Both the position numbers and the translations under genes were made by a program. Positions 52,826 through 56,477 of a stretch of DNA of 64,000 bases are shown in pieces (positions within the stretch are counted from its first letter, which is position 1; each line of letters opens with the position of its first letter). The stretch is from positions 186,001-250,000 of the forward strand of contig NZ_FNBE01000006.1 in the NCBI RefSeq assembly GCF_900102195.1, given 5' to 3'. This stretch comes from Pseudonocardia oroxyli (lineage in GTDB: Bacteria > Actinomycetota > Actinomycetes > Mycobacteriales > Pseudonocardiaceae). Under the pieces are notes generated by a model that saw only the letters and a list, made by a program, of their open reading frames with translations, was not told the origin of the DNA and did no database searches.

Positions 52826-53191
52826 TCAGCGGCGGAAGCCGAACTTGGTGCGCTGGATCAGGGCCATCAGGGCCTGGTGGGCCGCGTACATCTCCTGCTC
52901 GTACTCCGCCAGGCGCCGTGGGTCCGCGCTCGGGTCGGGGCGGGGAAAGGGGCGGACGGTCATCCACGCCTCCGACCACATGGCGTCCAGCGCGGTCTCC
53001 CAGTGCGAGCGCGCCGCGAGCTCGCTCATCGCGGCCCGCTCCCCGATCCGGCCCATGCGGTCGTCGAGCACCGCGAGCCGGTCCTCCAGCTCCGCGGCCC
53101 GCACCGCGTCCCGCCTGCGCAGCGCCTCGGCGGCGGAGGCGATCCGGGCCGTCTCCGCGCGGTAGCGCTCGGCGGGCGACTGCTCGGTCAC
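52826..53191 (-). CDS. Small helical protein, last gene of the FtsK/SpoIIIE module
   Basis: A 121-residue protein, almost entirely charged helix (AETARIASAAEALRRRDAVRAAELEDRL, then YEQEMYAAHQALMALIQRTK). No signal peptide, membrane segment or enzyme motif. The GTG overlaps the stop of the ATPase gene (GTGA), so it is made together with it. A coiled-coil adaptor or chaperone is a reasonable guess. Family unknown to me. Confidence 0.65.
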   Translation of the reverse strand: MTEQSPAERYRAETARIASAAEALRRRDAVRAAELEDRLAVLDDRMGRIGERAAMSELAARSHWETALDAMWSEAWMTVRPFPRPDPSADPRRLAEYEQEMYAAHQALMALIQRTKFGFRR

Positions 53192-55968
53192 GACATCTCC
53201 CCCGGCCCCGGCGCCGCCTCGTCCGGTCCGGGGACCAGGACCACCTCGGGCCGGGCGTGTTGGGCGCGGTCGAAGAACAGGCCGCGGCCCGCGCGGGGGC
53301 TCCACGCGACCGCCGTCATCGAGGCGAACGGGGCGAGCTCGGCGCCCTGGACGTCGAGCCCGATCCAGGCTCCGACGTCGTCCGGGCTCGCGGACAGGGT
53401 GAGCAGCTGTTTGAGCCGCATGGGCGAGCGCCACCAGCCGACGACGTGCACGCCGACCTCCGGCCCGAACCGCACGACGGTCCGCAGCGCGTCGGTGCCG
53501 CTGCGTTCGAGCAGGGGATCGGCCGCGTCCGCCCCCTGGACCAGCAGGAACACCGGGCTGCGGTCGCCGCCTGCGGCGCGGCCGCGCACCTGCTCCGCGA
53601 GGTCCTCGACGGCGGCGCGGAACCCGGTCAGGGTGACGGTGACCAGATCCGGGTCGGACGTCCCCTGCCGCACCGCGGCCGCCACCGTCTCGGTGTCCCC
53701 GACCAGCGGGGCGACGAGGAACCGGGCCCGCGGGCTGGTAAGGGCCAGCGACCGCGCCGCGGCGGCGAGCACGCGCACGGCGTCCTCACTGCTGCCCAGC
53801 ACCGCGACGTTGCGCCCCGGCGCGTCCGGCAGCCGGACGCGCGCGGCGGTGCCGTCGATGTCGATCACCTGGCCGAGCACCGCCTGGACGGGATCCTCGG
53901 GCGAGACGCGGGCGACGAGCGCGGCCGCGGACGGCGAGCGCGCGCCGTCGAACAGCCGCGGCGGCTCGCCCGCATACCGCTGGTGGGCCTCCTTCTGGAC
54001 CTGGTGCACCGCGGACCCGGCGCCGGCGTCCGGGATCCGGGCGATCTCGTTGGCGTGCCGGATCCCGGACTCGTGGTTGATCACCGCATGCCACTTGGGC
54101 AGCGTCAGCGCCACCTCGTTGAGCTGGGCCAGCACCCGGCGGGCCCGGGGCAGCGCGATGCGCAGCACGAACTGCTCGAAGATCGCGGGCCTGCCCCAGA
54201 AGGCCTCGATGCCGGACACGTCCTGGCTGGCGAAGACCAGGTGGATGCCCTGCGAGCGCCCGCGCCGGGCGACGTCCTCGAGCAGGTTGGTCGCCCGCTT
54301 GGCCAGCGCGTCGTTCTCGGCGAACAGGTACTGGAACTCGTCGATCACCGCGACGATCCGCGGCCACTGCCGCTCGTGGTCGGGCAGCCCGCGCAGCTCC
54401 TGGAGCTTGGTCACCTCGTTGGCCTTCGCGACCTCCGAGCGGGTGCGCATCTCGTCCGCGAGGAACTGCAGCAGCGCCAGCCCGAACTCCCGGTCGGTGT
54501 TGACGTTGATCCCGATCAGCCGCGCGTGCGGCAGCCAGGTCTGGTCCCGGCGGCCGGGCGCGAACTGCGCGAAGGAGACGCCCTCCTTGAAGTCGAGCAG
54601 GTAGAAGGCGAGCTGGTCGGGGCGGTAGCGGGCGGCGAGCGAGGCGATCATGCCCAGCAGCAGGTTGGTCTTGCCGGAGCCGCTGGGGCCGCCGATCAGC
54701 GCGTGCGGGGAGCTGTCGTCGAGCCGCAGCTCGACGACCGTGCCGTCGTTGAAGCCGATCTCGGTCTGCAGCCCGGGCGCGGAGTCGCCCTCCCCCCGTT
54801 CGGCCGGAAGCAGGTCGTCGAAGCGGCGCACCAGCGCCCGCCACCGCTCGTGCGCGCTGACGATCGTGGTGCAGGCGGCGGTGACGGCGGCCCGGTCCAG
54901 CGGCGGGTCCGGCGCCACCTCCACGGCGGGCCCGGTCATCGAGCAGCGGACGTCGGTCTCGGTCAGCCGCACGCTCTCCACGGGCGCGGCCACCGTGATC
55001 GGCAGGTCCAGCAGTACGAGCACGATCCCGCAGGCCAGGCCGCTGCGGGCGATGCGCTGCAGCTGCCGCTGCTGCTCGTCCGGCAGCGCCGAGCGGTGGC
55101 CGGCCAGCACCACGACCACCCACGGCTCGCTGCGTTGCCCCTTGGCCGCGGCATGCGCGGACACCGAGGTGTAGCCCTCGATCAGCACCTGCTGGTGCAC
55201 CCGGCGGATGCGGGCCGAGAGCTCCTCAAGCAGGTCGTCGAGCCGGTTGGGGTCGTGTGCCACGAGCAGGTCGGTCCGCGAGAGCGGGTGCATCGCGGGG
55301 AACATCGAGTACTGGCTGCCGTCCCAGACGTCCACCCGCAGCACCCCCGGCCGGAAGGCGGACAGCAGCCGCATGAGCAGCCGCTCCACCAGTGCCTCGC
55401 CGTCCGCCCGGGTGTTCGGGGTGGTGTCCACGCGCAGGTGGGCCTCGTCCAGCAGCGGGACCGCGACCGGGAACTCGCCCCCGTCGTCCCCGCCGCCCTC
55501 CACCCGGCCCGCGCCGATCCGCCACAACCGGGGAAAGCCCTCGATGCCGCCCCGCGCCGGGTCGTCCCCGCGGGACTCGCCGCCGACCGGGGGCAGCGGC
55601 ACGTCCCCCATCCAGCCCAGACCGGGGTCACCCGCGGCGCCGGGCGCGGCCTCGGCCAGGAGGTCCCGCAGCCGCCCGGGCCCGTCCGTGGCCCACTCCG
55701 CCAGCGCCGCGCTGCGGTCCGCCTCCGCGCGCGCGGCGACGGGGCCGAGCAGCCGGGAGCCGAACGCGGGCCCCAGACCGGGGTCCCGGGCCGCGCCGTC
55801 GACCCCTTCGCGGCGCAGCCACAGCTCGAACATCGCCACGGCCTGGCGGTGCACCGCCTCGTCCCGCAGCCCACCGGCCGCGCCGAGTACGCGCGCGGTG
55901 GCGGCGTGGAAGGCGTCGAACGCCGCGGCGACGCGCTCGCGCCGCCGCGCACCGGGCAGTCCCGCCAT
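53188..55968 (-). CDS. Soluble FtsK/SpoIIIE-type ATPase
   Basis: A 926-residue ATPase. The functional domain is central: Walker A ALIGGPSGSGKTNLLLGMIAS near residue 440, Walker B VAVIDEFQYLFAEND near residue 540, and RRGRSQGIHLVFASQDVSG following, as in the FtsK/SpoIIIE/EccC family. A second, C-terminal nucleotide-binding-like region (GRNVAVLGSSEDAVRVLAAA) lacks a proper P-loop. No membrane segments are visible, unlike EccCa or FtsK. The N-terminal 430 residues are Gly/Asp-rich and have no known match. Neighbouring small helical proteins, one WXG100-like, suggest a secretion or conflict system resembling a stripped-down type VII apparatus. DNA translocation is the alternative. Confidence 0.8.
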   Translation of the reverse strand: MAGLPGARRRERVAAAFDAFHAATARVLGAAGGLRDEAVHRQAVAMFELWLRREGVDGAARDPGLGPAFGSRLLGPVAARAEADRSAALAEWATDGPGRLRDLLAEAAPGAAGDPGLGWMGDVPLPPVGGESRGDDPARGGIEGFPRLWRIGAGRVEGGGDDGGEFPVAVPLLDEAHLRVDTTPNTRADGEALVERLLMRLLSAFRPGVLRVDVWDGSQYSMFPAMHPLSRTDLLVAHDPNRLDDLLEELSARIRRVHQQVLIEGYTSVSAHAAAKGQRSEPWVVVVLAGHRSALPDEQQRQLQRIARSGLACGIVLVLLDLPITVAAPVESVRLTETDVRCSMTGPAVEVAPDPPLDRAAVTAACTTIVSAHERWRALVRRFDDLLPAERGEGDSAPGLQTEIGFNDGTVVELRLDDSSPHALIGGPSGSGKTNLLLGMIASLAARYRPDQLAFYLLDFKEGVSFAQFAPGRRDQTWLPHARLIGINVNTDREFGLALLQFLADEMRTRSEVAKANEVTKLQELRGLPDHERQWPRIVAVIDEFQYLFAENDALAKRATNLLEDVARRGRSQGIHLVFASQDVSGIEAFWGRPAIFEQFVLRIALPRARRVLAQLNEVALTLPKWHAVINHESGIRHANEIARIPDAGAGSAVHQVQKEAHQRYAGEPPRLFDGARSPSAAALVARVSPEDPVQAVLGQVIDIDGTAARVRLPDAPGRNVAVLGSSEDAVRVLAAAARSLALTSPRARFLVAPLVGDTETVAAAVRQGTSDPDLVTVTLTGFRAAVEDLAEQVRGRAAGGDRSPVFLLVQGADAADPLLERSGTDALRTVVRFGPEVGVHVVGWWRSPMRLKQLLTLSASPDDVGAWIGLDVQGAELAPFASMTAVAWSPRAGRGLFFDRAQHARPEVVLVPGPDEAAPGPGEMS

Positions 55969-56217
55969 CTACAGCCCGGCCCCGAGGCCGCCGATCAGCT
56001 CGCCCGCCTCGTACAACGCGACCGCCACGTCGTCGACCTCCTCGCGCGCCCGGCTCAGGTGCTCGGCGGGCAGGTCGGTACCCGCCCGCGCCGTGAGCTC
56101 CTCCAGGATGCGCGCCGCCTCGCTCAATCGCTCGGCGGCGACGAGGGTGTGCGCACGGGCCTCGGCGGTGAGCCCACCGATCCCGTCCAGCGCGGCGCGC
56201 AGTTCACCGAGGGACAC
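55969..56217 (-). CDS. Small helical protein of the FtsK/SpoIIIE module
   Basis: An 82-residue protein: LGELRAALDGIGGLTAEARAHTLVAAERLSEA leads to a second helix ending AGELIGGLGAGL. It is similar in size and composition to ESX-like helical hairpins but lacks a WXG. Its stop directly adjoins the ATPase ATG, and its GTG overlaps the stop of the WXG100-like gene (TAGTG), so stoichiometric expression is expected. Confidence 0.62.
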   Translation of the reverse strand: MSLGELRAALDGIGGLTAEARAHTLVAAERLSEAARILEELTARAGTDLPAEHLSRAREEVDDVAVALYEAGELIGGLGAGL

Positions 56218-56477
56218 TACAAGCGCGCGGAGACGCCCTCGGCGGCCTCCATCGCGGCGTTCACGGCCTGCTGGACGTCCCCGATCTTGCTGGCCGCGTC
56301 GGCGAAGTAGGCGTTGGCCTGCTCCACGTCGCTCTGGCTGCTGCCCTCGGTCACCTGGGCCAGCGCGGTCTGCGCCTGCTCGATGCAGTCCTGGGCCTGT
56401 TGCAGGGCCCCCAGGCTCTCCGACGCCCGGTCGTTGGCCTGCGCGATCCCGGACCGCACTTCCTCGATGCTCGCCAC
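56217..56477 (-). CDS. WXG100-like small helical protein
   Basis: An 86-residue predicted helical hairpin: EEVRSGIAQANDRASESLGALQQAQDCIEQAQ, then a turn at TEGSSQSDVEQANAYF and a second helix to GVSARL. Size and hairpin shape match WXG100/ESAT-6 proteins, although the central WXG is replaced by a GSS-type turn. It is the first gene of the module with the EccC-related ATPase, as in type VII loci. GTG 56477 was chosen because GAGAGGGA lies upstream; a TTG at 56519 would add 14 residues. Confidence 0.62.
   Translation of the reverse strand: MASIEEVRSGIAQANDRASESLGALQQAQDCIEQAQTALAQVTEGSSQSDVEQANAYFADAASKIGDVQQAVNAAMEAAEGVSARL

Follow-up and report, generated by a model that had tools for sequence, protein, structure and literature searches.

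A soluble EccC/EssC-type ATPase and its small helical partner proteins in Pseudonocardia oroxyli

The locus and its motor protein

The window, a stretch of 64,000 nucleotides from contig NZ_FNBE01000006.1 of Pseudonocardia oroxyli, carries four genes in the order g1, g2, ATPase and g4 on the minus strand (Table 1). Every junction abuts or overlaps. The genes g1 and g2 have one base in common (TAGTG), g2 and the ATPase gene adjoin with zero spacing (TAGATG), and the ATPase gene overlaps g4 by four bases (GTGA). Chance or overlapping reading frames have been ruled out, all genes being kept in frame in relatives, and the four genes are considered real because of their conservation within the genus. 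Coordinates, junctions and conservation in 29 same-genus loci confirm the initial annotation, which had described a fused four-gene module with a soluble FtsK/SpoIIIE ATPase. Hydropathy placed a membrane segment in none of the four proteins. Searches with Pfam, NCBIfam and PADLOC did not assign any of g1, g2 and g4 to a family with confidence.

Table 1. Genes of the module, with positions in the window.
Gene	Position	Strand	Description
g1	56217..56477	(-)	86-aa predicted helical hairpin, GTG start; WXG100-like in fold and place, without WxG
g2	55969..56217	(-)	82-aa paralogue of g1
ATPase	53188..55968	(-)	926 aa, soluble, EccC/EssC-type, FtsK/SpoIIIE
g4	52826..53191	(-)	121-aa helical protein, GTG start

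The ATPase matches FtsK_SpoIIIE (PF01580) as the only Pfam family above cut-off (residues 409-585, E 2.6e-21); the FtsK gamma domain was not found by Pfam. An AlphaFold2 model with 57 homologues in the alignment (pLDDT 91, pTM 0.84) comprises an N-terminal helical coiled coil (residues 5-107) and three NTPase-like domains at about 146-380, 385-680 and 690-915, the limits being our reading of the secondary structure in the model. Walker A (427-434) and Walker B (539-544) motifs occur in the middle domain only. Across the 57 homologues, the middle domain has GxxxxGK[ST] in 55 cases, the outer domains in no case (0/57). Of the three domains, one is predicted to have an intact nucleotide site. No transmembrane segment was recognized, the sole hydrophobic stretch (about 310-330) being a buried strand in the confident model.

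A profile of the 57 homologues scored 179 bits with EccC versus 77 bits with FtsK. Foldseek ranked EccC and EssC above FtsK and gave the cytoplasmic region of T. curvata EccC as top match (4nh0, E 1.3e-29, 917 columns). The TM-scores of the Foldseek matches are low, about 0.4, as would be expected for domains in different orientations. Sequence comparison places the intact domain closest to EccC ATPase 1, and the alignment by Foldseek extends over almost all of the cytoplasmic part of EccC; domain-by-domain matching to EccC ATPase 1-3 is ambiguous. PADLOC reported matches to SspH and mad8, both confined to the NTPase domain. Sequence and model characterize the protein as a probable EccC-lineage motor, in which a coiled coil replaces the N-terminal transmembrane helices. 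The earlier proposal of a type VII-related motor core devoid of membrane segments is supported by the EccC profile, the Foldseek matches and the buried position of the hydrophobic stretch.

The small partner proteins

Structure prediction of g1 with AlphaFold2 yielded a two-helix hairpin with helices 4-42 and 48-85 (pLDDT 90). The g1 profile matched the T. curvata EsxA:EsxB dimer weakly (4lws, E 0.0066) and ESAT-6 co-linearly (E about 2). In Foldseek, the best five matches are all WXG100 proteins; these structural matches are suggestive only, since each has an E above 0.6 and is not significant. A PF06013 match was obtained for 4 of 32 hairpin members (best E 0.009). The motifs WxG and YxxxD/E occur in 0 of 69 g1 proteins, and a C-terminal leucine is present in 67 of the 69. 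In more remote relatives, the hairpin is replaced by proteins with a match to the WXG100 family, and true WXG100 proteins adjoin related ATPases (PF06013, E 2e-4 to 4e-7). Altogether, g1 is predicted to be a helical hairpin with weak similarity to WXG100. The original label 'WXG100-like' holds for the hairpin prediction, but not for the WxG motif or the YxxxD/E signal.

Comparison of g1 and g2 by hhalign (probability 97%, E 1e-10) indicates that the two are paralogous. The earlier description of g2 as another kind of small helical protein is corrected accordingly. The g2 protein also aligns with the N-terminal 80 residues of a Micromonosporaceae protein of about 300 aa in the same place (hhalign 88%, E 3e-6). 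Upstream of the ATPase gene, this longer protein with its g2-like N-terminal hairpin is encoded in L143:6539-7675 and in about 30 Micromonosporaceae/Glycomycetaceae loci. Its C-terminal region has no Pfam match. A polymorphic-toxin reading of this form is disfavoured, the C-terminal region appearing to be of one type within Micromonosporaceae as judged by eye.

The g4 protein was aligned with the N-terminal part of a coiled-coil protein of about 220 aa, which takes the same position in Micromonosporaceae (hhalign 59%, E 1e-4); this match is less firm than that of g2. A simple count based on hydropathy predicts two to three membrane helices in the counterparts from Micromonosporaceae and Glycomycetaceae. 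Among the named loci, the soluble form of g4 occurs in 38 and the longer form in 39. Judged by sequence, g4 is a putative coiled-coil partner, soluble in Pseudonocardiaceae and predicted to be membrane-anchored in the sister families.

Distribution, inheritance and genomic neighbourhood

The ATPase gene is present in 32 of 35 same-genus genomes (two in pieces), and in 29 of 30 Pseudonocardia genomes with a completeness of at least 90%. ATPase identity ranges from 52 to 67% across the 29 same-genus loci. The partner g4 lies beside the ATPase gene in 29/29 loci. All but one contain g1, the exception being cut by a contig end, and one more copy is partial; g2 is missing from about ten of the 29. 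Of the 151 Pseudonocardiaceae genomes, 120 carry the ATPase, almost always as a single copy, and they represent 35 of 45 genera. A class sample gave a relative at E 1e-25 in 48/297 genomes, a phylum sample one at E 1e-60 in 8/297. Most sampled genomes of one family (f8) are without a relative. In the ATPase tree, Pseudonocardiaceae separate cleanly from Micromonosporaceae together with Glycomycetaceae, and the copy in the window falls among Pseudonocardia. The module is vertically inherited and near-core in Pseudonocardiaceae. A phage or plasmid origin of the copy has been ruled out by the vertical tree and by the plasmid and phage records, none of which covers 80% of the ATPase.

A gene-neighbourhood survey revealed a constant order of the partner genes in most of 80 named loci, with flanking genes varying between families. 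In the wide Pseudonocardia loci, kgd and its small companion are usually near the module, and a gene for an NRAMP-like transporter often lies upstream; these names rest on sequence recognition. No recurring nuclease or recombinase adjoins the module in the named loci, as judged from protein sequences rather than a full domain scan. Other lineages, not Pseudonocardia, have Hsp70-type neighbours: DnaJ-TPR and Hsp70 genes lie beside the ATPase gene, and on a Rhodococcus plasmid it adjoins Hsp70-TPR-GrpE.

Several further arrangements were observed. Six loci of one class-level family (L082-L086, L100) carry the hairpin gene after the ATPase, in the order ATPase, coiled-coil protein, 87-aa hairpin and a trehalose-phosphate-synthase-like gene. 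In another family (L088-L090), the ATPase and a g4-like gene are followed by helical proteins of 201 aa and 120-140 aa, near trxA/trxB-like genes. A PP2C-type phosphatase gene is located near the module in four Amycolatopsis loci (L122:6430-7176 and three others), close upstream in L122 and L176. Plasmid pSBC2-5 of the betaproteobacterium Caballeronia (L102) harbors an operon of a soluble FtsK-type ATPase with vWA, WXG100, CARF, PP2C, kinase and AAA genes.

Homologues of EccB, EccD, mycosin and two true WxG proteins numbered 0 in the 1816 genes of 113 module loci, the queries being the host genome's own proteins, with EccE not among them. This agrees with the initial annotation, which had seen neither EccB, D or E nor mycosin or PE/PPE-like genes in the vicinity; across the 113 loci, membrane-anchored Ecc partners did not appear beside the predicted hairpin and its motor. 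The host genome encodes its own ESX locus (L186, C50:355808-365263) with EccB, mycosin, EccD, EccC with a membrane segment, and two WxG proteins. EccB was named by a family model, the others by place, length, membrane segments and motif. This locus looks complete and canonical, and is set among ribosomal-protein and rpoA/truA-like genes. Membership of the module in the host's ESX locus has been ruled out, the ESX genes lying together on that other contig. EccB is found in the host genome and in nearly all well-assembled Pseudonocardia genomes.

Relation to known systems and proposed function

In some CoCoNuT operons, described in 2024, a coiled coil replaces the membrane helices of an EssC-homologous ATPase. 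It has three ATPase domains, of which the central one alone is predicted to be active, and is encoded with two WXG100 proteins, one without WxG; secretion was predicted by the authors for the related operons (PMC11090510). Stand-alone versions of the ATPase/WXG100 operon are credited, in a passage of that article, to Anantharaman et al., 2012 (via PMC11090510). The WxG/FtsK pair of H. pylori (HP0062/HP0066) was termed a minimal type VII set in 2016, and a DnaK homologue was listed with a WxG100 family protein (PMC4978471). The suggestion that the module type had not been described is therefore not supported, as operons of a soluble EssC-like ATPase with WXG100 proteins have been published for CoCoNuT/TerY-P (PMC11090510) and H. 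pylori (PMC4978471).

Like the CoCoNuT (Type III-A) and TerY-P operons, the module combines a soluble EssC-like ATPase, an N-terminal coiled coil and a central site that alone appears intact with two adjacent small hairpins. At least one of these is without WxG; in the module neither has it. The module differs in being chromosomal core and vertical, in its extra g4 partner, and in the absence of flanking TerY-like vWA, kinase, PP2C and McrBC-type/nuclease genes, a PP2C gene being nearby only in the four Amycolatopsis loci. HP0062/HP0066 is likened by description, as a small WXG100-type protein and an FtsK/SpoIIIE protein with a DnaK homologue in a neighbouring cluster, whereas the Pseudonocardia copy is without DnaK and nuclease neighbours. 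EccC of ESX (T7SSa) and EssC/YukB of T7SSb likewise pair a multi-domain FtsK/SpoIIIE motor with small helical hairpins. In contrast to both, the module has no membrane helices, no EccB/D or MycP, one of three NTPase sites predicted intact and no hairpin export motif. FtsK/SpoIIIE DNA translocases belong to the same ATPase superfamily, but are less similar, and the module has hairpin partners and no membrane domain. The module is an actinobacterial core-genome variant of the soluble EssC-like ATPase/WXG100 operons, an identity reported here with high confidence. New against the related-operon literature found are the near-core vertical status in Pseudonocardiaceae, the presence in Micromonosporaceae, the g1/g2 paralogy, and the soluble and predicted membrane forms of g4.

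A minimal type VII exporter would secrete the hairpins as substrates, its soluble ATPase using g4-type membrane proteins or the host ESX channel in trans. Kinship of the motor with EccC, the predicted membrane helices of g4 counterparts, the wide occurrence of EccB in Pseudonocardia and the secretion predicted for related operons (PMC11090510) are consistent with it. Still, this reading is rather unlikely given that no g1 protein carries the export motifs, that EccB, EccD and mycosin genes are missing from the module loci, and that the window's proteins are all without membrane segments. Since export motifs and membrane parts are lacking in Pseudonocardiaceae, a cytosolic or peripheral machine is favoured over a complete exporter. 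Action on DNA, in segregation, recombination or the processing of plasmid or phage DNA, would fit the FtsK/SpoIIIE domain itself and the nucleases linked to related operons. It is judged improbable: EccC is a much closer match to the ATPase than FtsK or TcpA, small hairpins typically accompany motors of the ESX branch, and the named loci showed no recurring nuclease or recombinase by sequence.

Defence had also been considered in the initial annotation. A role like that of the TerY-P/CoCoNuT modules would fit the soluble EssC-like ATPase and WXG100 pairs inside CoCoNuT and TerY-P loci, the vWA, CARF, PP2C and kinase genes at the Caballeronia plasmid copy, and the SspH and mad8 matches. The latter are limited to the NTPase domain, however, and no kinase, vWA or nuclease partner stands at the module, whose location is the same in most of the Pseudonocardia loci examined. 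A mobile defence role fits the copy in the window poorly because the gene set is single-copy and vertically inherited, and defence as a whole has a low probability.

The preferred reading, offered tentatively and at somewhat less than an even chance, is a cytosolic type VII motor derivative acting as a protein-handling motor and not as a complete secretion channel. Protein clients are favoured over DNA by the EccC kinship, the hairpin partners and the Hsp70-type neighbours in relatives. The ATPase would hexamerise, as FtsK and EccC do. The products of g1 and g2 would pair as a WXG100-like dimer, or g1 as a homodimer where g2 is missing. The C-terminal tail of this dimer, of fixed length and with a conserved final leucine, may dock on the motor and cause its recruitment or activation. 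As a scaffold, g4 would pair with the N-terminal coiled coil of the motor, and in the sister families tether it to the membrane. The middle domain would then hydrolyse ATP to unfold or move a protein client. Against the protein-handling motor, the membrane form of g4 in the sister families suggests a membrane task and leaves room for a role in export or at the envelope. A widespread, housekeeping-like cytosolic offshoot of type VII in actinomycetes, with an EccC-derived, hairpin-regulated remodelling motor that is coupled to Hsp70/DnaJ/GrpE in some lineages and secretes nothing, is conceivable but doubtful.

If the protein-handling reading is true, the role of the ESX/EssC motor with its hairpins goes beyond secretion. 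The cytosolic form of the motor counts as near-core in Pseudonocardiaceae and is common among Micromonosporaceae. In many soil actinomycetes, the module is an ordinary inherited chromosomal operon. What a minimal type VII motor does can be tested in non-pathogenic genera such as Salinispora, Micromonospora and Saccharopolyspora, given that the gene set is constant, that g4 comes in a soluble and a predicted membrane form, and that some clades have g2 and others do not.
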